Source of the DNA: a virus
DNA length: 24,428 bases
IMG/VR virus record: IMGVR_UViG_3300030106_002384
Span: 1-24,428 of that record
Strand: one strand, 5' to 3'
Within the stretch, counting starts at the first letter, position 1. Every line of letters begins with the position of its first letter. Positions 1 through 9,998 of the stretch are shown piece by piece. The notes beneath the pieces are model-generated. The model made no database searches and was not told where the DNA came from. It saw nothing but the letters and a program-made list of their open reading frames with translations. The translations under genes and the position numbers were made by a program.

Positions 1-297
1 TATATTGACGATCATTATGGCCTTGAGGCATGGCAAGTTTTGTATAGCTCGCCATCTAAAAGAATGGTAGAAATTTCCACTGAGCATCACCATGAGTATT
101 ATACTTATGAGAATGCACCAAATATTCTTGATGCGGCTATGGACTATATGCAGAGTGAGGAGGACTGCCAGTATTTCTCCACAGATGACACAGTAGAAAT
201 GTTTTCAGCAACGTCTTTACACCATGAATGGAGGGCTGAAAAATTAATTAACCAACAATTAGATGCAATCAAGGTACTTTATGCACCATTTAATTAA
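1..297 (+). CDS. Hypothetical protein, 5'-truncated by the window edge
   Basis: The reading frame is open from the first base of the window to the TAA at 295-297, so the true start lies upstream. A TTG at 40 is only an internal possibility. The 98 visible residues are acidic and rich in His and Tyr near the start (HHHEYYTYE), and I recognise no family. It precedes the series of small genes that share one start-site block and is followed by a 36-base gap to the next gene. It is probably another member of the early accessory region. Function unknown. Confidence 0.6.
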   Translation, partial: YIDDHYGLEAWQVLYSSPSKRMVEISTEHHHEYYTYENAPNILDAAMDYMQSEEDCQYFSTDDTVEMFSATSLHHEWRAEKLINQQLDAIKVLYAPFN

Positions 298-333
298 TAC
301 AACTGTATCAATGAGATAAAAAGGAGAACTAAA

Positions 334-507
334 ATGACTTACGAGGATTTAAGGCAATACCTCAACACGTTAAGCACTGAACAACTCAACGATGATGTGA
401 CGGTTTACATCAGAGAAAATGATGATTACTACCCGTCAACTAATGTATCCGTTGTTAGAGATTCGTTTGACGTATTGCATAAAGGTCACCCGTATTTAAT
501 AGTTTGA
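334..507 (+). CDS. Small conserved hypothetical protein (57 aa)
   Basis: The ATG at 334 follows an AAGGAGAACTAAA block with ideal Shine-Dalgarno spacing. The product begins MTYEDLRQYLNTLSTEQLND, continues with DVTVYIRENDDYY, and ends in GHPYLIV. This pattern (an N-terminal helix with L..L...QL, a VTVY strand, and a C-terminal GHPYL) resembles a widespread family of ~60-residue bacterial and phage proteins of unknown function. Codon choice leans to C-ending TAC and AAC, like the adjacent MORN-like genes and unlike the rest of the window. No catalytic motif is visible. The start is well supported and the role is unknown. Confidence 0.65.
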   Translation: MTYEDLRQYLNTLSTEQLNDDVTVYIRENDDYYPSTNVSVVRDSFDVLHKGHPYLIV

Positions 508-511
508 ATAG

Positions 512-526
512 GTGCAATGGTTGCAC
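512..526 (+). other. Small perfect hairpin in the leader of the first MORN-like gene
   Basis: GTGCAA at 512-517 pairs with TTGCAC at 521-526 around a 3-base loop. It lies just after the stop codon at 505-507 and 12 bases before the RBS block of the gene at 551. There is no T-run, so it is not an intrinsic terminator. It could be an mRNA processing or stabilising hairpin, or chance. Confidence 0.3.
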
Positions 527-550
527 TTAACACAATAAAGGAGAACTAAA

Positions 551-916
551 ATGACTGAAGAATGGGTTAGTTACTACGACAACGGTCAGTTATGGAGAAA
601 GGGTAACCTCAAGAACGGTAAGGAAGAAGGAACGTGGGTCGAATACTGGACGAACGGTCAGGTGAGTTCCGAGGGTAACTACAAGAACGGTAAGGAAGAA
701 GGAGAGTGGGTTTATTACTTCGACAACGGTCAGTTAGATTCAAAGGGTAACTACACGAAGGGTAAGAAAGAAGGAGAGTGGGTCCATTACAATTACAACG
801 GTCAGTTAGATGAAAAGGGTAAATACAAGAAAGATAAGAGAGAGGGAAAGTGGGTCTATTACTACGACAACGGTCAGTTATGGTACAAGGGTGACTACAG
901 TAACGGTAAAAAATAA
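551..916 (+). CDS. MORN/YwqK-like repeat protein 1
   Basis: A 121-residue protein made almost wholly of five 24-residue units, the last truncated. The consensus is WVxYYDNGQLxxKGNYKNGKxEGT. This matches the MORN-like repeats of the family annotated as YwqK-type toxin-antitoxin antitoxin, where each unit forms a beta-hairpin. No signal peptide, membrane segment or enzymatic domain is visible, so it is probably a cytoplasmic binding or scaffold protein. It has a close paralogue at 1104 separated by one 57-aa gene. Codon use is distinctive: Tyr is almost always TAC and Asn almost always AAC, whereas most genes here prefer TAT and AAT, which suggests recent acquisition. Repeat class is confident. 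Role is unknown. Confidence 0.85.
   Translation: MTEEWVSYYDNGQLWRKGNLKNGKEEGTWVEYWTNGQVSSEGNYKNGKEEGEWVYYFDNGQLDSKGNYTKGKKEGEWVHYNYNGQLDEKGKYKKDKREGKWVYYYDNGQLWYKGDYSNGKK
563..913 (+). repeat. Five tandem 72-bp coding repeats (MORN-like), array 1
   Basis: Units begin at 563, 635, 707, 779 and 851, each at the TGG codon of the repeat, and the last unit is cut short by the stop codon. Segments such as ACAACGGTCAGTTA and AAGGGTAAC recur nearly exactly in each unit. The length is a multiple of three, so gain or loss of a unit by slippage or recombination keeps the frame. The array shares long stretches with the array at 1116. Confidence 0.85.
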
Positions 917-928
917 AGGAGAACTAAA

Positions 929-1102
929 ATGTCACAACTATCTGCACCATTAAAACTTATTGTTGAAACAATACTCCCCAACTACAGTGATGGAGAACTG
1001 CAAGGTATGTTGTTGCAAAGGCAACACAATAAGAAATCTCTCTTATATCGAGCGGTAAAGATAGAGATGGCTAAACGTAACCTATTGAAAGAGGAGAACT
1101 AA
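929..1102 (+). CDS. Hypothetical protein between the two MORN-like genes (57 aa)
   Basis: The ATG at 929 follows the shared RBS block, and the TAA at 1100-1102 lies inside the next copy of that block, one base before the next ATG. The product starts MSQLSAPLKLIVETILPNYS and is predicted largely helical, with a basic C-terminal half (LLYRAVKIEMAKRNLLKEEN). I recognise no family. Position between two paralogous repeat genes suggests it arrived or duplicated with them, perhaps as a partner, but nothing in the sequence shows an interaction. Confidence 0.6.
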   Translation: MSQLSAPLKLIVETILPNYSDGELQGMLLQRQHNKKSLLYRAVKIEMAKRNLLKEEN

Positions 1103-1103
1103 A

Positions 1104-1475
1104 ATGACTGAAGAATTTGAATTTTACTACGACAACGGTCAGTTAGGTTTAAAGGGTAACTACAAGAACAATAAGAAAGAAGGAACGTGGGTTCGTTACC
1201 ACGACAACGGGCAGTTGAGTTCCAAGGGTAACTGGAAGAATGGTAAACCAGAAGGAACGTGGGTCCATTACTACTCAAACGGTCAGTTAAAAGCAAAGGG
1301 TAACATCAAGAGCGGTGAACCAGAAGGAACGTGGGTCGATTACCACGACAACGGTCAGTTATTGGAGAAAGGTAACTACACAAACGGTAAACGAGAAGGA
1401 ACGTGGGTCAATTACAACAGGGATGGTTCAAAGAATTTCCATTGGTCGGGTGTCTACCGTAACGGTAAAAGATAA
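1104..1475 (+). CDS. MORN/YwqK-like repeat protein 2
   Basis: A 123-residue paralogue of the protein at 551, again built from five 24-residue MORN-like units. Four are typical (YHDNGQLSSKGNWKNGKPEG and similar). The last is a diverged cap containing NYNRDGSKNFHWSGVYRNGK. Both proteins begin MTEE and use the same start block. The codon preference (TAC, AAC, GGT) matches the first paralogue. No signal peptide or enzymatic motif is visible. It could be a binding scaffold, an antitoxin-like protein or an inhibitor of a host factor, and the sequence does not decide between these. Confidence 0.85.
   Translation: MTEEFEFYYDNGQLGLKGNYKNNKKEGTWVRYHDNGQLSSKGNWKNGKPEGTWVHYYSNGQLKAKGNIKSGEPEGTWVDYHDNGQLLEKGNYTNGKREGTWVNYNRDGSKNFHWSGVYRNGKR
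1116..1472 (+). repeat. Five tandem 72-bp coding repeats (MORN-like), array 2
   Basis: Units begin at 1116, 1188, 1260, 1332 and 1404, and the fifth is diverged. The core ACAACGGTCAGTTA and the end motif GAAGGAACGTGGGT recur. The array is homologous to the one at 563, so recombination between the two would delete the 57-aa gene between them and leave a single in-frame repeat gene. Confidence 0.8.
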
Positions 1476-1487
1476 AGGAGAACTAAA

Positions 1488-1763
1488 ATGACTGAGAGAA
1501 GTGATGATTTAGATCAAGATGAAGTAGTTAATGGCTATACTTACAGATTAATACAGAGTCTTTTGAGAGACAAACAAGTGGCTGATGCGACTAGATTCAT
1601 AGAAGCTGAAACTATATTAAAAGATACCAAGAACTATCTACAACATCTCATAGATCGAGGTATGCTCACCAACTTTTCTGTTCGTAACGACGATTTAAGT
1701 GTGTCCAGTGCTCAAGAAATATGTGATGATATCGATGCATTTTTTGATACAGAGGAGAACTAA
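1488..1763 (+). CDS. Hypothetical acidic helical protein, paralogue of the next gene
   Basis: A 91-residue acidic protein starting from the shared RBS block. Residues 17-33 read YTYRLIQSLLRDKQVAD, and residues 75-81 read AQEICDD. The next gene has YTY and KQPAD at exactly the same residue numbers (17-19 and 29-33) and a similar AICKDI near its end, so the two look like a diverged tandem duplication. The last three residues, EEN, are encoded by the RBS of the following gene. No known family, cofactor motif or membrane segment was recognised. Confidence 0.65.
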   Translation: MTERSDDLDQDEVVNGYTYRLIQSLLRDKQVADATRFIEAETILKDTKNYLQHLIDRGMLTNFSVRNDDLSVSSAQEICDDIDAFFDTEEN

Positions 1764-1764
1764 A

Positions 1765-2070
1765 ATGACTGAGAATAATAAACACTTACTTACTTCAATT
1801 GGTCTTCTACAGTACACGTATAAAGATATCTTAGATTTGATTGAGCATAAACAACCTGCTGATCCTGAAAAAGTCAGAAGAATGTATGACGATATCTCCA
1901 TCACAAATTGTGAGTCTGAAGAACTCTTACGAAGTGCTTTGTGGTGCATTAGATATCTAACAAAATTAAATGAAGAAGATGAATTTCTTAACGTACACAT
2001 TGAAGAAAAAGCAGATGCTATCTGTAAAGACATAGAAGACCACTTGAAAGAGTGTGAGAAAATATCATAG
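1765..2070 (+). CDS. Hypothetical acidic helical protein (101 aa)
   Basis: The frame is open further upstream, to an ATG at 1699, but the ATG at 1765 is preceded by the shared block with the usual spacing and begins MTE like its neighbours, so I chose it. The product has YTYKDILDLIEHKQPAD at residues 17-33 and AICKDIEDHL near the end, matching the gene at 1488 in order and partly in exact position. It is Glu-rich and predicted mostly helical. Function unknown. Confidence 0.65.
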   Translation: MTENNKHLLTSIGLLQYTYKDILDLIEHKQPADPEKVRRMYDDISITNCESEELLRSALWCIRYLTKLNEEDEFLNVHIEEKADAICKDIEDHLKECEKIS

Positions 2071-2080
2071 GAGAACTAAG

Positions 2081-2221
2081 ATGACATACTACCTATGTGC
2101 TTGCTGTTATGCTATGAAAACGTGGGGCTTGCGAATAGAAAAGGACAAAGGAAAAATAGAAAACTCTCGACTGCCCCGGTGTGATGAGTGTACCAACAAA
2201 GCTGTAATTAAAGAGGAATAG
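2081..2221 (+). CDS. Very small putative zinc-ribbon protein (46 aa)
   Basis: The start is set by TAGGAGAACTAAG upstream of the ATG at 2081. The peptide has two CxxC knuckles, C6/C9 and C34/C37 (with an extra Cys at 8), separated by a basic linker. This is the spacing of a minimal zinc ribbon, so metal binding and a nucleic-acid or protein contact are plausible inferences. It ends in KEE at 2219-2221, directly before the next ATG. I cannot name a family. Confidence 0.55.
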   Translation: MTYYLCACCYAMKTWGLRIEKDKGKIENSRLPRCDECTNKAVIKEE

Positions 2222-2222
2222 A

Positions 2223-2387
2223 ATGCTTAAAACAAAGTACAAAAGCTGGTCATCCACAGAGATGAACTATAAAACAGATCAAGATCTTAGACTACAAAAA
2301 ATAGAAGATCAAATAAATATATTCAAAGAACAGATAGCTTTTCTCATTCGGATGGCTGATGAAAGTGTACCAAAAAAGGAGAAATAA
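2223..2387 (+). CDS. Small hypothetical coiled-coil protein (54 aa)
   Basis: The ATG at 2223 follows GAGGAATAG, so the upstream stop overlaps its ribosome-binding region. The segment LRLQKIEDQINIFKEQIAFL (about residues 22-41) has hydrophobic residues with heptad-like spacing, typical of a short coiled coil. The C-terminal codons AAG GAG AAA also form the RBS of the next gene. Family and function are unknown. Confidence 0.55.
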   Translation: MLKTKYKSWSSTEMNYKTDQDLRLQKIEDQINIFKEQIAFLIRMADESVPKKEK

Positions 2388-2388
2388 T

Positions 2389-2619
2389 ATGACTATCAAG
2401 CGCATACACGTAAACCAACACGTTATCAAAAAAAACCGTAAATATCCAGATCAAGATCCTTCACCAGTGCTTACTTGTAAAACGTCTAACAGCAATACAT
2501 ATGCCCATGAAATATATGTAGATGGGCCATGCCGAATAGTATATAGACCTCACAAGCCACTATCATGTGGAGCACAAGTATGGATCGAAACCACAGCCGA
2601 AGTAAGAAAGGAGAGATAG
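2389..2619 (+). CDS. Hypothetical protein (76 aa)
   Basis: An in-frame ATG exists at 2359, but the ATG at 2389 sits after AAGGAGAAATAAT and directly follows the upstream stop, so it is preferred. The product begins MTIKRIHVNQHVIKKNRK, is basic at the N-terminus, and has beta-rich middle segments (HEIYVDGPCRIVYRPHKP) with three Cys. A small all-beta fold is likely. No family recognised. Confidence 0.55.
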   Translation: MTIKRIHVNQHVIKKNRKYPDQDPSPVLTCKTSNSNTYAHEIYVDGPCRIVYRPHKPLSCGAQVWIETTAEVRKER

Positions 2620-2620
2620 C

Positions 2621-2791
2621 ATGAGCATAGTAGTATCCGCAGACGAATTTTGGGACAGAAAAGTAAATCAGTATATCACTCTTTGGAAGTATGGAAAGCA
2701 TAGCACTGAGCAACTTAGTGATAATCTTATTCGCATAGGGTATGACCCTACAGTTGTGAAAAAAACTATAGAGGAGTATCTAAATGGTTGA
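2621..2791 (+). CDS. Small hypothetical protein upstream of thyX (56 aa)
   Basis: The ATG at 2621 follows AAGGAGAGATAGC. The product (MSIVVSADEFWDRKVNQYI..., ending IEEYLNG) resembles a compact helical domain: the segment STEQLSDNLIRIGYDPTVV could form a small helix-turn-helix. Its stop overlaps the thyX start by 8 bases, implying translational coupling. No specific family can be named. Confidence 0.55.
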   Translation: MSIVVSADEFWDRKVNQYITLWKYGKHSTEQLSDNLIRIGYDPTVVKKTIEEYLNG

Positions 2792-3446
2792 GATGCTGGT
2801 AAAATTAATTACACACATGGGCAGTGATCTGTCTGTAGTTAATTCAGCAAGAGTATCTTTTGATAAAGTACATGAAACTTTTGATACAGATAAAGATACA
2901 CGGCTCATAAAATATCTTGCAAAGCATGGGCATTGGAGTCCCTTTGCCCATGCTTCTATGCAGTTTAGATTAAAGGCTCCGGTTTTTGTAGCAAGACAAC
3001 TTGTGAAGCATCAAGTGGGCTTGGCATGGAATGAGATATCTCGAAGATATGTAGACAGTGAGCCAGAGTTTTATGTACCTGATACATGGAGAGCTAAAGC
3101 AGATAACAAGAAGCAGGGTTCCTCTGACGAGGAGATAGATATAAATCCTCCTTATGATTCAGGACGTAGAATGCTAGATCCTTATCAAATACAAATATCT
3201 TCTACTGTAAAAACGTACAAACATTTATTAAAGCTAGGTGTATGTCCTGAACAAGCCAGAATGATTTTACCTATGTCAATGATGACAGAGTGGTATTGGT
3301 CTGGATCATTGTTTGCATTTAGTAGAGTGTGTAATCAAAGATGCAAAGCTGATGCACAAAAAGAGACACAAGAAATAGCATGGAAAATAGACAAACATGC
3401 GAGAGAATTATTTCCTGTGTCCTGGGCTGAATTAAGAAAGGAATAG
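2784..3446 (+). CDS. thyX: Flavin-dependent thymidylate synthase ThyX
   Basis: ThyX makes dTMP from dUMP using FAD, NADPH and methylene-tetrahydrofolate, feeding phage DNA synthesis. The 220-residue length fits the family. The signature lies at residues 75-89 (KHQVGLAWNEISRRY), and the C-terminal dUMP-binding region PEQARMILPMSMMTEWYW (about 155-172) is followed by SLFAFSRVCN..R, as expected. Compared with the textbook RHRx7S motif, the Arg residues of RHR are replaced (KHQ) and one residue is added before NExSxRY, as in other phage ThyX proteins I recall. The ATG at 2784 is set by GAGGAG seven bases upstream. It acts with the class II RNR encoded at 15516. Confidence 0.93.
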   Translation: MVEMLVKLITHMGSDLSVVNSARVSFDKVHETFDTDKDTRLIKYLAKHGHWSPFAHASMQFRLKAPVFVARQLVKHQVGLAWNEISRRYVDSEPEFYVPDTWRAKADNKKQGSSDEEIDINPPYDSGRRMLDPYQIQISSTVKTYKHLLKLGVCPEQARMILPMSMMTEWYWSGSLFAFSRVCNQRCKADAQKETQEIAWKIDKHARELFPVSWAELRKE

Positions 3447-3450
3447 TAAA

Positions 3451-3756
3451 ATGAAAGATCAGAGTGAAAGGTTCTACGAATTGTTGGACAGCATGAAAGC
3501 CCTGCATGATATTAAAAGGCATGACTATGCCAGTGAAGAAGATGTCTTTGCAAACTTTAGAACCTGCGAGATGGCTGGTATACCCTCTTGGAAAGGCTGT
3601 TGCGTTAGACTTGGCGACAAGTTTAGTCGCATCATGCAGTTTGCAAAGAGAGAAAAGTTACAGGTTAAAGATGAAAGTATTAAAGATACATTGCTCGACA
3701 TGGCAAACTACGCCCTGATAGCCATAGTCCTTTATGAACAAGAGAGAATAGAATGA
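3451..3756 (+). CDS. DUF1599-like (nucleotide-modification-associated) protein
   Basis: A 101-residue all-helical protein. The order HDIKRHDYASEEDVFANFR, then CVRLGDKFSRIMQFAK (about residues 50-65), then KDTLLDMANYALIAI (about 78-92) matches the small DUF1599 family. I recall that family as linked to phage nucleotide modification and resembling MazG-type NTP pyrophosphohydrolases in its helical acidic layout. The D..xR.xDK and DTLLDMANYA motifs could bind metal. Its place directly after thyX fits a role in nucleotide metabolism, but the reaction is unknown. RBS AAGGAATAG precedes the ATG. Confidence 0.65.
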   Translation: MKDQSERFYELLDSMKALHDIKRHDYASEEDVFANFRTCEMAGIPSWKGCCVRLGDKFSRIMQFAKREKLQVKDESIKDTLLDMANYALIAIVLYEQERIE

Positions 3757-3905
3757 TAGATGTAGTACGCCCTGTTAAATCTATTGTGAATATTTCAAAG
3801 TACTATATTAGAAAGAGAGGAGAGCTACGTAAAAAGATTAAACCTAAGACAGAGAAAAAGAAACCTGAACAAAAACGTGATGGAGGAGGTGGTACTTATG
3901 CTTGA
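3753..3905 (+). CDS. Small basic protein overlapping the lysin gene (50 aa)
   Basis: The ATG at 3753 overlaps the previous stop (ATGA). The peptide is strongly basic (KYYIRKRGELRKKIKPKTEK) and ends GGGGTYA. Those glycines are encoded by the GGAGGAGGTGGT that serves as RBS for the next gene, and the two frames overlap by 8 bases. Translation of this small gene may therefore control entry to the lysin start. Family and function are unknown, and a nucleic-acid-binding role is only inferred from charge. Confidence 0.5.
   Translation: MIDVVRPVKSIVNISKYYIRKRGELRKKIKPKTEKKKPEQKRDGGGGTYA
3882..3890 (+). promoter_or_regulatory. Strong RBS that sets the SleB hydrolase start
   Basis: GGAGGAGGT lies seven bases before the ATG at 3898. 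This favours that start over the upstream in-frame ATG at 3877, which overlaps the previous gene further and would add only seven residues. The site is inside the coding sequence of the small basic gene. Confidence 0.7.
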
Positions 3906-4446
3906 AGTATCTTTGGTAACTATTTCTGTATTAATTAATATAGTAACTGGCTTAACAAATTTAGAGGAGGATTATTATTTAGAAGATTATAATGAGATAT
4001 ATTGTTTAGCTATAAATGCTTACCATGAAGCTAGAGGAGAGGGCTTTGACGATAAACTTGCGACTACTCAAGTGGTAATGAATAGGGTAGATAGCTTTGA
4101 TTATCCTGAAACTGCTTGTGATGTCGTAACTCAAGGTCCAATCGTTGAGTCATGGAAAACAAGAAAAGATCCAACACTAACTGAGATGGAACGTGAATAC
4201 TATCCAAAGAGAAATCGGTGTCAGTTTAGTTGGTTTTGTGACGGTAGATCGGATCTGATCTACGACATGGAAGATGGCTTTGAAGACTCAGTGATTGCCG
4301 CTTACCTAACTCACAGTGGCTGGGGTGAAGACATAGTCAATGGTGCTACTCATTATTATGCTCACGATAAAGTCACACCTTCATGGGCAAAAGACATGAG
4401 AGTAACTATAAAATTAAATGGACACACTTACTTGAAAGAAAATTAA
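3898..4446 (+). CDS. SleB-type cell wall hydrolase with N-terminal signal-anchor (endolysin)
   Basis: A 182-residue member of the SleB hydrolase family, which cleaves glycan strands of peptidoglycan. It shows the catalytic segment AYHEARGEGF (E44 probable catalytic acid), VVMNRV (59-64), CQFSWF (108-113) and GATHYYAHDKVTPSWA (149-164). Residues 4-20 are hydrophobic (VSLVTISVLINIVTGLT) with no obvious cleavage site, so export as a signal-anchor-release lysin is possible. It sits far from the late structural genes, in the early/middle arm. Substrate and timing cannot be read from sequence. Confidence 0.85.
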   Translation: MLEVSLVTISVLINIVTGLTNLEEDYYLEDYNEIYCLAINAYHEARGEGFDDKLATTQVVMNRVDSFDYPETACDVVTQGPIVESWKTRKDPTLTEMEREYYPKRNRCQFSWFCDGRSDLIYDMEDGFEDSVIAAYLTHSGWGEDIVNGATHYYAHDKVTPSWAKDMRVTIKLNGHTYLKEN

Positions 4447-4447
4447 G

Positions 4448-4477
4448 TTGACAATGTGAAACAGTACATGGTAGAAC
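4448..4477 (+). promoter_or_regulatory. Possible sigma70 promoter before the DUF932 gene
   Basis: TTGACA at 4448-4453, just after the lysin stop, is a perfect -35 box. The best -10 at 18 bases is only TAGAAC (4472-4477), and a better CATAAT at 4477 is too far away. It shares ATTAxxTTGACAA with the stronger promoter at 12048, which also abuts a stop codon. The gap to the next gene is 59 bases. Confidence 0.3.
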
Positions 4478-4505
4478 ATAATCATTAATTAAAGGAGAAT
4501 ACAAA

Positions 4506-5390
4506 ATGTTAAACACATTCGCACTACCCGAAGCTCTTAAATTCAATCCTGTTCTTATGCCTATTGAACATAACGGTGTAAGATTACCTACTTCTATAGG
4601 ACAAAAGATAGTAAGAGATGATACCAACGAGGTTCTTGGTATAGTTAAATCTCGATATACTCCTCAACCTTATTCCTCTTTATGGGAACCGCTTGTCGAG
4701 GGGTTAGAAGAATCAGGTCTTGACCTTAAAGATGCAGAGATCAAGTGGAGTATTATGAACAATGGTGCTCGTATGATTGCTGACATTACTTTGAAAGCAT
4801 ATGACTATAGTCATATTGTAGGAGAGAAGACTGCTATTAATTTTACCATAGGTAATAGTGTAGATGGATCTTTGAAATATCATTTAGCTGCTTGCATTAA
4901 TAGGTTGGCGTGTCTCAATGGGCAATCTCGAATGGCCGAAAATACATCAGTTAGATTTAAGCACACTATGAGCACTGAGCCTGAGAAAATAGGTAAAGTA
5001 GCGAGTGCTTGGCCTTCTATTTTAGAGAATGACGCTCATCTCTTTAACCACATGCGGCGAGTGCCTATGGAGCGAGACACAGTACAAAACTTTATGGCTA
5101 CAAAGCTGTGTGTAACTAAGACAAAGACTAAGATTAAGGTTAACGACAAGTGGTTGGGGCGTATGATGGGACTGTGGGATAATTACAGTTCTACAATTGG
5201 TAAAAATGGGTATGCATTTTATAATGCTTTAACTCATTACGCTACGCACGTTGACAATGACAGCCTACGGGGGGCTGAGATAGGAAACGTGCGGTTGCGA
5301 CAGGAGCAAAATGTACAGTCTTTGGTGCGAGGCTCTGCGTTTAAGAAGCTCATTAAATATGATGACTTCGAGCAGCGATTAGCTGCGTAA
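4506..5390 (+). CDS. DUF932 phage/plasmid-like protein
   Basis: A 294-residue protein with the DUF932 pattern: a VKSRYTPQPYSSLWEPLVEG segment near residue 50, a central beta region (ADITLKAYD ... TIGNSVDGSLKYHLAACINRLACLNG, about 92-140) and a C-terminal NALTHYATHVDND segment. DUF932 proteins occur widely in phages and plasmids and are sometimes very abundant. Their biochemical role is not established, and replication or host takeover has been suggested. RBS AAAGGAGAATACAAA precedes the ATG. The gene is followed by a strong terminator and may have its own promoter, consistent with independent expression. Confidence 0.8.
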   Translation: MLNTFALPEALKFNPVLMPIEHNGVRLPTSIGQKIVRDDTNEVLGIVKSRYTPQPYSSLWEPLVEGLEESGLDLKDAEIKWSIMNNGARMIADITLKAYDYSHIVGEKTAINFTIGNSVDGSLKYHLAACINRLACLNGQSRMAENTSVRFKHTMSTEPEKIGKVASAWPSILENDAHLFNHMRRVPMERDTVQNFMATKLCVTKTKTKIKVNDKWLGRMMGLWDNYSSTIGKNGYAFYNALTHYATHVDNDSLRGAEIGNVRLRQEQNVQSLVRGSAFKKLIKYDDFEQRLAA

Positions 5391-5402
5391 CCTGTCGCTC
5401 AT

Positions 5403-5458
5403 GTGATGGCAGGTGCATAGGTTTTTGTTCTCCACCTGTGTACCTGCCATTACTTTTT
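5403..5458 (+). terminator. Rho-independent terminator after the DUF932 gene
   Basis: Bases 5403-5422 pair with 5434-5453 in a 20-bp stem with three G-T wobbles around an 11-base loop. TTTTT follows at 5454-5458. The core ATGGCAGGT/ACCTGCCAT is perfect. The stop codon ends at 5390 and the next gene starts at 5474, so the hairpin fills the gap and closes the left transcription unit. Confidence 0.85.
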
Positions 5459-5473
5459 AAAAGGAGATTCTCA

Positions 5474-5713
5474 ATGCAATATATAATTTTAATCACCATG
5501 TTATTTTTAAATCCTGCGGATGATGATGGTTCAATGCTAAAGGTTGATACTTATTATGGTAAACCTTTAGTGTTTACAAGTTTAGAAGAATGTATTCAGC
5601 ATGTGAAAATTAACGAACAGGATTTAAAAGACTATGCAAAGTATTATTACAGAAATATTTCTGGTTCTTCTGTAAACAAGATATTATGCGTTAAAAAAAG
5701 TGATTATGTTTAG
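5474..5713 (+). CDS. Small probable secreted protein (79 aa)
   Basis: The ATG at 5474 follows AAAAGGAGATTCTCA and avoids extending back through the terminator, so it is preferred to the in-frame ATG at 5438. Residues 1-13 (MQYIILITMLFLN) form a short hydrophobic signal-like segment. The rest contains two Cys (in EECIQHV and KILCVKK) that could form a disulfide. It starts a cluster of three small exported or membrane proteins. No family recognised; a periplasmic role is inferred. Confidence 0.6.
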   Translation: MQYIILITMLFLNPADDDGSMLKVDTYYGKPLVFTSLEECIQHVKINEQDLKDYAKYYYRNISGSSVNKILCVKKSDYV

Positions 5714-5731
5714 TTAGAGAGAGAGTATACA

Positions 5732-6025
5732 ATGTTAAAATTTATACATACTTCTTGGTTTGCTGTGATGGATAATAAAATTAATCCATTAAAACACATA
5801 CCTGATACGGCTGTGCGACATTTAGTGATGCAGTTACTGGCTTGGATGTGGTGCATTGTGTTTTCATTTTATATAGGATCGTGGGTAGTGTTTGGTATAT
5901 CTATTGTAGCTCACGTGATTTTGATAGCTACTATTTGTGTTACTGTAATCACCTTTGAAACAGCAAAAAGAAAACCAAATGTGTTTGCAGGTCTAGGTCG
6001 TAAATATAATGGAGAACATGAGTGA
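5732..6025 (+). CDS. Two-TM membrane protein (97 aa), holin candidate
   Basis: After a polar N-terminal segment (KINPLKHIPDTAVRH), about residues 32-50 and 52-75 form two hydrophobic helices (QLLAWMWCIVFSFYIGSW, then VFGISIVAHVILIATICV). A basic/polar tail with RKPNVFAGLGRKYNGEHE follows. I recall this architecture and the wording of the tail from uncharacterised marine phage membrane proteins. Two helices with a charged tail is also a holin-like layout, but the gene is not adjacent to the lysin. Function unproven. Confidence 0.6.
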   Translation: MLKFIHTSWFAVMDNKINPLKHIPDTAVRHLVMQLLAWMWCIVFSFYIGSWVVFGISIVAHVILIATICVTVITFETAKRKPNVFAGLGRKYNGEHE

Positions 6026-6150
6026 TGAATTATTATAAAAAATCTAGTACTGTGAGAATAAGCAAGATGGAAAAGTGGACAACACGATGCGCTGTAGTTG
6101 TGTTATTGTTATGTGTGGCTTTAATGTTTATATCAAACTATGTTAAGTAA
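6025..6150 (+). CDS. Single-TM peptide (41 aa)
   Basis: The ATG at 6025 overlaps the previous stop by one base, and GGAG at 6011-6014 can serve as RBS. A basic N-terminus (YYKKSSTVRISKMEKW) is followed by one hydrophobic helix CAVVVLLLCVALMFISNYV (about 22-40). This is an N-in membrane peptide. It could be a holin accessory or membrane-targeting factor. No homologue recognised. Confidence 0.5.
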   Translation: MNYYKKSSTVRISKMEKWTTRCAVVVLLLCVALMFISNYVK

Positions 6151-6301
6151 CGCAGAGCAGAACGTGTTACACATGTTAATTTCAGAGAGAGAGAATCTTG
6201 GTCTTCGATCTTTGAAGGATGACATTGAGTATCTGATTGTTGACAGGTGGTTAAAGACTCGAATACGTGAGTTACAGAATAGACAAAAAGGAGAGCTTTG
6301 A
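6140..6301 (+). CDS. Small hypothetical helical protein (53 aa)
   Basis: The gene overlaps the end of the previous one by 11 bases and its TGA overlaps the next ATG. It is charged and probably helical (MLISERENLGLRSLKDDIEY, then LIVDRWLKTRIRELQNRQKG). The last codons supply the AAAAAGGAGAG ribosome-binding site of the SET-domain gene. Tight overlap on both sides argues that it is real, but its start has no strong Shine-Dalgarno. Function unknown. Confidence 0.45.
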   Translation: MLSNAEQNVLHMLISERENLGLRSLKDDIEYLIVDRWLKTRIRELQNRQKGEL

Positions 6302-6759
6302 TGAGAGCATTGCCCAAAGAATTTACTATTGCATCATCTACTATTGATGGGTTAGGACTCTTTGCTAAAGAAGATATAGTAATTTTTCCTTCGGCCATAA
6401 CCCATATCTACCACCCGATACTGGGCTGGCTACGTACTGCTGTAGGGGCGTTTATAAATCATAGTGATAAACCTAATTGTGAAGTGGAGAAGCACACCAT
6501 TGAAATTCCTTTGAAGGCTTCCTTGAAAGACATTAATTTTTATGAGGATCTAGATCAATATCTGCTAGGATCTAGACACAGCGAAAAAGGAAAGTGTTTT
6601 GTTAAAACTAGGTATCTAACAACTTGCAAAGATATCTCTAAAGGTGAAGAAATAACAATTAAATATGAGGACGTATTATATCATGGACTTGGACCAATTG
6701 ACTATCCCCGAATTCCTTCGCAGGAAGAAGAGTTCTCCAAAAATTATGTTGGAAGATAG
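6301..6759 (+). CDS. SET-domain protein (putative lysine methyltransferase)
   Basis: A 152-residue protein consisting of little more than a SET domain: GLGLFAKEDI (17-26) for the N-terminal part, GAFINHSDKPNC (49-60) for the NHS/NPN-type cofactor loop, and KGEEITIKYED (114-124) for the G-E-x-T-x-x-Y end. SET domains transfer methyl groups from S-adenosylmethionine to lysine. The post-SET Cys cluster of many eukaryotic enzymes is absent. ATG 6301 is chosen over TTG 6298 because of RBS spacing. Targets could be host or phage proteins. Small stand-alone SET proteins occur in bacteria and viruses, but the role in this phage is unknown. Confidence 0.8.
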   Translation: MRALPKEFTIASSTIDGLGLFAKEDIVIFPSAITHIYHPILGWLRTAVGAFINHSDKPNCEVEKHTIEIPLKASLKDINFYEDLDQYLLGSRHSEKGKCFVKTRYLTTCKDISKGEEITIKYEDVLYHGLGPIDYPRIPSQEEEFSKNYVGR

Positions 6760-7090
6760 TGTTTCTTTTAGCACTAAAGACATATCTACTTGGGATACTT
6801 GGGATAAAATAAAGCAGGAGAAGTACGGCAAAAGATATGACATTGTGCTTGGAGATGAAGCACCTCGAATCGGAAACGGTTTCCGCATTGTATATGTGCG
6901 AGAAGGACGCAAGTGGGTTTACATGACCAGTCACAAGGGAGATCCTAGTGTACGTTCTGGTAAAGTCGTTAAACGATTGTCTCTAAAACAATGGCGTGAT
7001 ATAGAAAAACGTCACGATCAATACCTGAAAAGGAACAATCCCGATGAAGTTAATAGAAAGCTCAATCTCAGAAGTCGTAGAAAGGTATAA
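6683..7090 (+). CDS. Hypothetical protein upstream of integrase (135 aa)
   Basis: The N-terminus MDLDQLTIPEFLRRKK is a motif I associate with small phage and alphaproteobacterial proteins of unknown function. A basic C-terminus follows (KRLSLKQWRDIEKRHDQYLK...RKLNLRSRRK). ATG 6683 overlaps the SET gene by 77 bases; ATG 6665 and ATG 6746 are alternatives, and none has a strong RBS. The TIPEFLRR motif placed near the N-terminus decides for 6683. The basic tail suggests nucleic-acid binding, and the position invites an excisionase or integrase-accessory hypothesis, which the sequence does not prove. Confidence 0.6.
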   Translation: MDLDQLTIPEFLRRKKSSPKIMLEDSVSFSTKDISTWDTWDKIKQEKYGKRYDIVLGDEAPRIGNGFRIVYVREGRKWVYMTSHKGDPSVRSGKVVKRLSLKQWRDIEKRHDQYLKRNNPDEVNRKLNLRSRRKV

Positions 7091-8009
7091 GAAATCTCCA
7101 GAGTTTTGCACTAAAATAAGATCTAATAAAACTAGACAGCAGTATGCTTATCAGTTGCAAAGAATATGTGACTTAGTTTTAGATGGACATAAGGTAGGAG
7201 ATATTATTGTAAAAGATTTATCTCCTGCCACTTGCCAACATGTATACTGGACTTTGATAACTAATGTTCAAGAGGGTAGTGGAGGAGAGCGGTTTGCTAA
7301 CTATGCTCTTCAAGTTATAACTCGTGCGTGGAATGTCCTGCTCAAGTACGATCTGTTAGATAAGAATCCTTGGACTTACATAGAAAGAAGTAAACCTCCA
7401 CCTCGCAATGTGGTATGGAGAGATGAGGATTTTACCACGTTTTTAAAAGTTGCATTTAGTAAACCTAAATGGAGAAACGTAGGACTATTAGTAAGAATAA
7501 ATGTAGAGTTGGGACAAAGGATAGAGGATATTAGATTATCCAAATGGGAGAACTATGACTTAGAGAAAAAATTATATACAAGAGAAGTTATACTTAAAAC
7601 TAATGAACGCATTGCAGGTATACCCATGTCTGATTCCTTGGTTAAGATGCTTCTGGAACAAAAGAATATCTATGACTTTCAAGAATGGGTAGTGCCTAAT
7701 CCTTATACCCTTGATCCTTACAGTGAACAGAACATAACAACAGTCTTTAGAAATATAAGAAATCATACAGGTTTACCTGATCGATTACAGCTACGGGACA
7801 TTCGCCGTACAGTCCTAACCGATTTAGCTAATCACGGGGCTACTGATACAGAAATAATGGCTTACTCTGGACACAAAAGCAGAGAAAGTCTGATGCCCTA
7901 CGTGCGGATCAGCACTCAGCAAGCTCGTAATGCTGCCGCTAAAAGACAATTTGATTTACTTGAAGATGAAACTTGGCAAAGCTTGGATACTAATCTTAAT
8001 GATAAGTAA
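7044..8009 (+). CDS. Tyrosine recombinase (phage integrase)
   Basis: A 321-residue site-specific recombinase. An N-terminal SAM-like arm/core-binding region (about 1-115) is followed by the catalytic domain. The active-site set is R159 (ELGQRIEDIRL), K185 (VILKTNE), R254 (LRDIRRT), H277 (YSGHKS) and nucleophile Y286 (MPYVRIS). The first His of the usual HxxR box is Arg (R251), a tolerated variant in some members. RBS AAAAGGAAC lies within the overlapping upstream gene. It would cut and join DNA at attachment sites, giving lysogeny potential or genome resolution. I found no attP-like tRNA fragment nearby. Confidence 0.88.
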   Translation: MKLIESSISEVVERYKKSPEFCTKIRSNKTRQQYAYQLQRICDLVLDGHKVGDIIVKDLSPATCQHVYWTLITNVQEGSGGERFANYALQVITRAWNVLLKYDLLDKNPWTYIERSKPPPRNVVWRDEDFTTFLKVAFSKPKWRNVGLLVRINVELGQRIEDIRLSKWENYDLEKKLYTREVILKTNERIAGIPMSDSLVKMLLEQKNIYDFQEWVVPNPYTLDPYSEQNITTVFRNIRNHTGLPDRLQLRDIRRTVLTDLANHGATDTEIMAYSGHKSRESLMPYVRISTQQARNAAAKRQFDLLEDETWQSLDTNLNDK

Positions 8010-8760
8010 GTATATTGATTCATTAGGTTTGCAAATTGATGAAAGTTATCGAGGCGATTGCCCTCAATGTGGAGGTAAAAATACTTTTACTGTAACTAAA
8101 ACAACTGATGGTATACTGTACAATTGCTACAAATTAAATTGTTTTTTAAGAGGAACATCGTCTTATACTTTTACAGTTAATGACGCTAAGATACGTAAAG
8201 ATAAAAAAGAAACTTTAAGTAAAAATTTTATATTACCTAGTAGTGTACTATACAAAATAGATATTACTTCAAAGTGGGCAGAACAGTATGATATACCTGA
8301 TATTGATATTCTCTATGATGTTAAAGAAGATAGAATAGTATTTCCTATTTTACATGAAGCCGCCATAGTGGATGCGACAGGGAGAGCTGTTAATAGAAAA
8401 ACTATTCCTAAGTGGAAAAGATATGGTAACTCTGGGTATCCTTATGTAGTAGGCGAAGGTAGTATAGCGGTTGTTGTAGAGGATTGCATATCAGCGGCGG
8501 TAGTATCTACATTAAATAAAAATTTTACAGGCGTTGCTCTGCTTGGTACAGCTTTGTTATCAAATCATATTAAAGAGTTAGAAAAGTATTCTACTATTTT
8601 AGTTGCACTTGATCCTGATGCAGTTAAAAAAACAATTGAGTTTACTAGGCAGTTGCGAGGTAACTTATCTAGATCTAAGGTACATGCTGTAAAATTAAAG
8701 GATGACTTGAAATATAGAACTTACTTAGATATTATATCTTTACAAAATTATATATACTAG
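7999..8760 (+). CDS. T7-like DNA primase (stand-alone)
   Basis: A 253-residue primase equivalent to the N-terminal half of T7 gp4. The zinc-binding domain has C21, C24, C43 and C48 (CPQCGGKNTF ... YNCYKLNC), and the TOPRIM fold has E161 (VVVEDCISA) and the DPD acidic pair D205/D207 (ILVALDPDAV). It makes RNA primers for lagging-strand synthesis and reads its template through the zinc finger. The start at 7999 places a compact N-terminus MISKYIDSLGL before the zinc finger, and in-frame codons further upstream would lie deep in the integrase gene. Helicase is encoded separately just downstream, unlike fused T7 gp4. Confidence 0.85.
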   Translation: MISKYIDSLGLQIDESYRGDCPQCGGKNTFTVTKTTDGILYNCYKLNCFLRGTSSYTFTVNDAKIRKDKKETLSKNFILPSSVLYKIDITSKWAEQYDIPDIDILYDVKEDRIVFPILHEAAIVDATGRAVNRKTIPKWKRYGNSGYPYVVGEGSIAVVVEDCISAAVVSTLNKNFTGVALLGTALLSNHIKELEKYSTILVALDPDAVKKTIEFTRQLRGNLSRSKVHAVKLKDDLKYRTYLDIISLQNYIY

Positions 8761-8771
8761 GAGAACCCCAG

Positions 8772-9998
8772 ATGGAGATTGCGTTATTAAAAACGCTAAT
8801 GAACAGAGAATTCTACAATGATAATAAAAACGTAGCGAAAGATAAAATTTTTAGAAGTAAGGAGACACGGTCTATTAAGCAAGTGATCGATGAGGCAATG
8901 TCTGATTACGAAAATAAAATAGGTCCATCTGATATAGAAGCATTATTTTTTACAAAGAATACTTCTTTGACTACCTCACAAAAAGATTTGTATGAGAGTA
9001 TCTTTCGTAAAATAGACAATGCAGATACGTTAAATGATGATGTAGCACAGAATGTTTTACGTGAACTTAATCGAGAGGATGCCGCTAATGAACTAATGGA
9101 CATAGCTTTTAAAATGTCGAATGGTGAGGTCACTAGTCTTCATAAGATTTCACATTTTGTTGATAGGCATGAAGATGATTTTATGCCTTCGTTAAAAGTT
9201 TACTTTGAAAATATGGATATAGATTCTTTGTTACAACAAAATGAATTACAATTTAAATGGAAGATAAATATACCTTCTCTTTCTCAATTAGTTCCCGGTG
9301 TTAATTCAGGTCAAATAGTTGTAGGTGCGGCTAGACCAAACACAGGAAAAACTTCTAGTCATGCATACCTTTCCGCTGGCCCCGGAGGATTTGCCCACCA
9401 AGGTGCAAAAGTTATGGTGCTTGCAAACGAAGAGGCAACTAGTAGAGTGTCCTCACGATATCTCACTGCCGCCTGTGGTATGACCATTAAAGAAATAGTT
9501 AAAAACAGAAAACGTGCAGAGGAATTATTCACTCCAATCAAAGATAGGCTTAAAATTACTGATGCCACAGGTTGGGATCTTGACCGTGTAGAGAGAGCAA
9601 TCAAAGCTTACCAGCCAGATATAGTTGTAGCTGACATGGCAGATAAGTTTAATCCAGAAGGTAAGTATACAGCACACCATGAGCAACTCAAAGCAGCGTA
9701 CATTAGATTTAGAATCATAGCAAAACAGTACGGGTGTGTGCTCTTTGCAATGTCTCAATTGTCTGCTGAAGCCGAAGGTAAAGTCTTTGTTAACATGTCA
9801 ATGTTAGAGGGCAGTAGAACAGGTAAGGCTAGTGAAGCTGACATTTTATTTTGTATTACAAAACCTCCCATGGTTGAAGGTCAGTATGAAGATGACAGTC
9901 CAGAGAGACATTGGTTAGTTTTAAAAAATAAACTGACAGGTAGACACGGTAAAGTTTTAACTCTACTTAATCCTGAAACTGCTACGTACAGCGCATAG
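8772..9998 (+). CDS. DnaB/gp4-like replicative helicase
   Basis: A 408-residue RecA-fold hexameric helicase. Walker A is GAARPNTGKTS (185-195), the catalytic Glu region is ANEEATSR (218-225), Walker B is DIVVADMAD (283-291), the sensing motif is MSQLS (327-331), and the C-terminal KNKLTGRHGK carries candidate Arg-finger and lysine contacts. The N-terminal ~150 residues are helical and lack a primase domain. It unwinds DNA 5'-3' at the fork with the primase and polymerase encoded on either side. The stop of primase TAG forms part of the RBS TAGGAGAAC, giving tight coupling. Confidence 0.9.
   Translation: MEIALLKTLMNREFYNDNKNVAKDKIFRSKETRSIKQVIDEAMSDYENKIGPSDIEALFFTKNTSLTTSQKDLYESIFRKIDNADTLNDDVAQNVLRELNREDAANELMDIAFKMSNGEVTSLHKISHFVDRHEDDFMPSLKVYFENMDIDSLLQQNELQFKWKINIPSLSQLVPGVNSGQIVVGAARPNTGKTSSHAYLSAGPGGFAHQGAKVMVLANEEATSRVSSRYLTAACGMTIKEIVKNRKRAEELFTPIKDRLKITDATGWDLDRVERAIKAYQPDIVVADMADKFNPEGKYTAHHEQLKAAYIRFRIIAKQYGCVLFAMSQLSAEAEGKVFVNMSMLEGSRTGKASEADILFCITKPPMVEGQYEDDSPERHWLVLKNKLTGRHGKVLTLLNPETATYSA

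Follow-up and report, generated by a model that had tools for sequence, protein, structure and literature searches.

What do genes built from short tandem repeats do in the early region of a marine phage, and where do they come from? The question is raised by a 24,428-nt stretch of viral DNA (the window; positions 1 to 24,428 of IMG/VR record IMGVR_UViG_3300030106_002384), in which an initial annotation had described two tandem genes of five 24-residue repeats flanking a 57-residue gene, and had suggested that they encode YwqK-like binding proteins acquired recently by the phage.

MORN genes in an operon with replication genes

The features on which the argument turns are as follows (window coordinates unless stated).

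1..374, no strand: terminal overlap; the 54,523-nt record ends in the same 374 nt, with one mismatch
539..553, plus strand: initiation block AGGAGAACTAAAATG of MORN-A, with exact copies also at 322, 917, 1092, 1476 and 1753
551..916, plus strand: MORN-A, 121 residues, five 24-residue MORN_2 repeats, no signal peptide
929..1102, plus strand: 57-residue gene between MORN-A and MORN-B, no family match
1092..1106, plus strand: initiation block of MORN-B, same as AGGAGAACTAAAATG
1104..1475, plus strand: MORN-B, 123 residues, four MORN_2 repeats and a C-terminal cap (DGSKNFHWSGVYRNGKR), no signal peptide
Record 53092-53481 (L011:8093-8482): MORN-C, a third paralogue of 129 residues, found by a whole-record MORN_2 search

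The coordinates, the repeats and the Pfam matches confirm the arrangement of two five-repeat genes around the 57-residue gene, the last of the five repeats being truncated or cap-like. In a profile search, PF07661 (MORN_2) matches MORN-A at E = 7.3e-22 (75.3 bits) and MORN-B at E = 1.3e-19 (68.4 bits); both scores lie above the curated cut-off of 29.6 bits, and the matches far exceed chance. The MORN genes also show a 72-nt periodicity in their DNA. An AlphaFold2 model of MORN-B (mean pLDDT 97.5) is an all-beta solenoid that matches axonemal MORN proteins, the MORN4/Myo3a complex, MORN1 and junctophilin-2 in the PDB, with Z scores of ∼8 to 11.3. Given the Pfam matches, the model and its PDB matches, the identification as MORN repeats is secure; PHROGs returned only weak matches for the MORN region, mostly to families of unknown function. 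The earlier description was thus right about the repeats but not about the number of genes, since there are three MORN genes, with MORN-C lying outside the window. MORN-B and MORN-C are alike in start, architecture and C-cap, and MORN-A ends with an ordinary repeat.

Because the two ends of the record overlap by 374 nt, MORN-C lies upstream of the window, with 669 nt between its end and position 1, and the genome is probably complete, with a unique length of 54,149 nt once the overlap is removed (IMG/VR classes the record as linear). The DNA polymerase shows 55.3% identity, over 100% of its length, to the enzyme of roseophage CRP-345 and 54.5% to the enzyme of HMO-2011, and, from the polymerase and the ∼54-kb genome size, the phage is an HMO-2011-type podophage, a member of a described group that is dominant and widespread among marine viruses (PMC9038755). 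Near the record join, a frameshift seems to have divided a single gene into a 98-residue frame (L011:8924-9220) and the frame at window 1-297, and a short near-duplication (ATTATGGCCTT) is found at the same place.

The three genes belong to a rightward operon that starts near L011:5500, facing leftward genes, and that runs in the order MORN-C, MORN-A, MORN-B, thyX, integrase, primase, helicase and DNA polymerase. Judged from position alone, the MORN operon is presumably early, and its place ahead of the replication genes supports the original assignment to the early region of a marine phage. The common start block of MORN-A, the 57-residue gene and MORN-B is likewise present, but it is not special to them: there are eight exact copies of AGGAGAACTAAAATG, with near matches at 2069 and 2377, and every plus-strand copy falls inside the one operon. 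We therefore do not regard the block as peculiar to this group of genes but as the standard, operon-wide ribosome-binding site. A scan of viral contigs with a 20-nt start block returned six contigs, none with a homologue of the window proteins tested.

Other repeated elements lie upstream of window position 1, where L011:5605-8706 holds six intergenic hairpin copies of 50-60 nt that lie in the leaders of the first small genes. The six share an identical GTTCTTACGAAC apex, and their stems covary between copies (four pairs changed on both sides); the three copies that were folded gave about -26 kcal/mol, with z from -7 to -9.5. The exact hairpin core is absent from the other viral contigs searched. 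The early regions of CRP-345, CRP-1 and HMO-2011 each carry a dispersed short palindrome in three copies, of the type TGTCCAACGTTGGACA in CRP-345 and CRP-1 and AGTCCGACAGCGGACT in HMO-2011, so that the arrangement is common to all but the sequence is not. These palindromes may act as operators or as RNA hairpins.

Occurrence among phages and other viral contigs

We fetched 80 related polymerase loci and searched 50 HMO-2011-type records whole, five of which are complete isolates. None of the 50 has a MORN_2 match at E = 0.01 (many of the records beyond the isolates are fragments, in which absence is weak evidence), and the trio thus appears to have been gained as accessory genes of a variable operon, in support of the earlier proposal that the phage lineage acquired these genes. 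The same comparison across related marine phage contigs, also proposed at the outset, yielded no homologue of the 57-residue gene in the fetched relatives. With the exception of a 54-residue gene after MORN-C, the other small genes tested around the MORN genes are equally without homologues in these relatives, which marks the region as hypervariable and accessory. Searches by polymerase, hairpin and start block recovered no close relative with the same early region.

Phage records gave no match to MORN-A at 1e-3 and only weak matches to MORN-B (best 4e-4), although low-complexity masking may hide further matches. MORN-A is, nevertheless, 50% identical over 114 residues to the MORN stretch of phage contig L021, and MORN_2 genes are found in several other viral contigs, with no HMO-2011-type polymerase in the records searched. 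In L021 (98 kb; 3298-5610), MORN repeats are fused to an apparent phage lysozyme domain, as read from the sequence. The 155-kb contig L171 has, at 1-4322, at least six MORN_2 paralogues of 80-107 residues that have no signal peptide, share a C-terminus (like FYARM) and are interleaved with other small repeated genes. Contig L182 (72 kb) carries ∼12 consecutive small MORN-like paralogues at 4462-9554, most of them overlapping, and L022 has three related repeat genes.

It should be noted that MORN_2 in phages is already known from BFVD annotations and from PMC9238414. What appears to be new is the trio in an HMO-2011-type phage, the missing export signal relative to the marine bacterial family described below and the fact that arrays of signal-less paralogues turn up repeatedly in viral contigs; in the open-access literature searched, we found no prior description of any of these.

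Bacterial relatives, export signal and repeat evolution

A bacterial genome scan gave 38 loci, with the best matches in marine proteobacteria at 50-63% identity. The exported relatives include the following.

SAR116: protein of ∼194 residues
Rhodospirillales: L104 and L112
Nitrosomonadaceae: L105 and L107-L109 (Nitrosomonadaceae-like)
Porticoccus: L103

Most bacterial homologues consist of a signal peptide, an N-cap (like VeRdGlyYkKFsdvPFTGkVtG), several repeats and a C-cap ending like GtfKNGKkisD. The SAR116 family of genome G056 has a homologue in 36/58 genomes at E = 1e-8; in a broad sample of the same class, 1/385 genomes passes a stricter E of 1e-22. The phage proteins have kept the repeats and, in MORN-B and MORN-C, the C-cap, and the signal peptide and N-cap are absent. 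Phage frames begin MTEE with few codons upstream (that of MORN-A opens just 12 nt before its ATG), which leaves no room for a signal peptide or an N-cap, and without these the phage MORN proteins should stay cytoplasmic. By a crude hydropathy rule, a signal-like segment is present in 54/60 bacterial versus 6/55 viral MORN_2 frames; by eye, only about three of the six viral ones look like true signal peptides, and two of these three come from a single short contig, L170, which is possibly host DNA. The trio was probably acquired from a marine proteobacterium, the direction from bacterium to phage being read from the distribution rather than from a tree.

Two further observations concern the bacterial genomes. 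In unrelated proteobacteria (L105, L107 and L114), MORN genes lie downstream of glmS, accompanied in L107 and L114 by a short recombinase-like gene (PF07508), and the glmS site is a possible common insertion hotspot. Separately, a 97-residue membrane-like protein without a Pfam match (window 5732-6025) has homologues in other HMO-2011-type contigs, in Methylophilales phages and in 29/58 SAR116-family genomes; in ∼8 of the latter, a MORN gene lies no more than a few kb from the homologue.

The date of the acquisition is another matter. C-ending Tyr and Asn codons had been taken as a sign of recent transfer, and the skew itself is real, with TAC at 33/41 in the MORN genes versus 79/237 and AAC at 33/39 versus 97/351. 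It exceeds that of the neighbouring early genes, which also lean to TAC for Tyr, and a weaker form of the skew is present in bacterial MORN genes when these are set against their own neighbours (Mantel-Haenszel odds ratios of 2.39 for Tyr and 1.73 for Asn). Moreover, since a single ancestral unit gave rise to all the repeats, the codons are not independent and their effective number is small. We therefore do not accept the skew as proof of recent transfer: it partly belongs to the repeat family as such, and the nearest bacterial proteins recovered share no more than ∼57-63% identity.

Codons of the framework hardly change among the trio's 12 repeat units (TAC for Tyr4, GGT for Gly14 and CAG for Gln9, each in 12/12), and positions 3, 5, 6, 11, 12 and 21 vary, with pN at the variable sites (0.46) above framework pS (0.22). 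Variation is found at these positions in one other viral array, too, and inside bacterial proteins (Spearman 0.74 for the comparison with bacteria), and surface tolerance is thus enough to explain the variability of the trio. We accordingly make no claim of diversifying selection or of an arms race.

These data also bear on the least probable reading that we considered, in which the trio are tandem-repeat genes that serve no specific function and that recombination, among repeats and among identical initiation blocks, has propagated: the near identity of framework codons between units and the eight exact blocks would fit it, but all three frames are open, nonsynonymous change in the framework is low (pN 0.08 vs. 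pS 0.22) and unrelated viral contigs repeatedly carry MORN arrays that mostly lack a signal, making it very unlikely.

Proposed role and comparison with known systems

The best functional reading of the trio, in our analysis, would be that of binding scaffolds, given the fold matches and the published view of MORN repeats as protein-protein interaction modules (PMC7725318). Several of the structural matches of the MORN-B model are protein-protein binders, and MORN4 binds myosin 3a in its groove (cited in PMC7725318). We consider it an evenly balanced proposition that the three proteins are cytoplasmic protein-binding scaffolds, derived from an exported bacterial family and made early for host (or phage) proteins. 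Each would form a rigid, groove-bearing beta solenoid in which the six variable positions sit on a constant framework; expressed early, they would attach in the cytoplasm to proteins of the host (or of the phage), the three copies would have different specificities, and binding might inactivate a host factor or divert it as the phage takes over the cell. Against this, the variability may reflect plain surface tolerance, and the trio may instead have a lysis, virion or regulatory role.

The chief rival makes the trio decoys of the host's exported MORN protein. Here, a phage MORN protein would act as a dominant negative by pairing through its C-cap with freshly synthesised host MORN preproteins in the cytoplasm, or by taking their partner, with a block of a host envelope function as the outcome. 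MORN-B and MORN-C share their C-cap type with SAR116 and Rhodospirillales proteins, possible host groups carry the exported version (the 36/58 SAR116-family genomes), and published MORN1 proteins dimerise through their C-termini (PMC7725318). MORN-A, however, has another cap type, and the C-terminal dimer is not known outside eukaryotic MORN1; we judge both the decoy mechanism and its envelope outcome to be unlikely.

Proteins labelled YwqK carry MORN_2 repeats, and phage antitoxins against defence toxins exist, so the trio could be YwqK-like antitoxins or immunity proteins directed against a toxin-based host defence, as the initial annotation had raised; PMC8321402 treats YwqJ and YwqK of B. 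subtilis as a toxin and its antitoxin. However, no toxin gene was found among the scanned neighbours of the phage MORN genes or of the marine bacterial homologues examined, and those homologues are exported. An NCBIfam search reported no YwqK model (the library may lack one), its sole match being a sub-cut-off adhesin, NF033566 (43.9 vs. 250 bits), and the only match to a defence model is a weak one, to DruL4 (E = 0.012). The YwqK link is therefore not supported, and an antitoxin role seems improbable. A tail or adhesin gene was rejected: the LIC20035-family adhesin match is below cut-off, and the MORN genes sit among small genes that precede the replication genes, away from the structural ones.

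An equally improbable reading is that of peripheral membrane proteins, serving, for example, superinfection exclusion or inner-membrane remodelling through lipid-binding MORN repeats. Although MORN repeats were first described at membranes, in junctophilins, lipid binding has been re-evaluated in favour of protein-protein interaction (PMC7725318), and the trio has no strongly basic sequence, with equal acidic and basic counts in MORN-A and MORN-C and a small basic excess in MORN-B.

The scaffold reading could be generalised, more doubtfully, to phages that repeatedly turn the exported bacterial MORN_2 family into cytoplasmic, amplified and swappable cassettes of host-protein binders, with the trio and the viral arrays as examples. 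If so, the trio and arrays of up to ∼12 genes would be one unrecognised kind of phage accessory module, and, were the switch from exported to cytoplasmic general, it would define a class of phage tools made from host envelope proteins. Such modules are probably under-counted, given that MORN repeats are 37 times more frequent in marine long-read viral data than in assemblies (PMC9238414). Most small genes of HMO-2011-type phages are without known function, and a defined scaffold that has clear bacterial homologues, and that one phage carries but its relatives lack, offers a direct handle for pull-downs.

Among known systems, the eukaryotic proteins MORN4/retinophilin, MORN1 and junctophilin-2 share the MORN solenoid fold (Z of ∼8 to 11) at ∼20% identity, a likeness of fold that shows no common function. 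YwqK of Bacillus subtilis, the antitoxin of the LXG toxin YwqJ, has MORN_2-type repeats too, by general annotation knowledge, but the trio has no toxin partner in the neighbours scanned and no YwqK model was reported for it. The exported marine proteobacterial proteins resemble the trio in the 24-residue repeat (50-63% identity for the best matches), in the C-cap type of MORN-B and MORN-C, in the variable positions and in often occurring as several paralogues; they have a signal peptide and an N-cap, whereas the phage proteins have neither. Other viral MORN_2 systems (L021, a 708-residue protein of L009, L171, L182 and giant-virus MORN proteins in BFVD) are, like the trio, mostly signal-less and often present as several paralogues, but, unlike it, they extend to arrays of up to ∼12 genes and, in L021, to a fusion with an apparent lysozyme domain.
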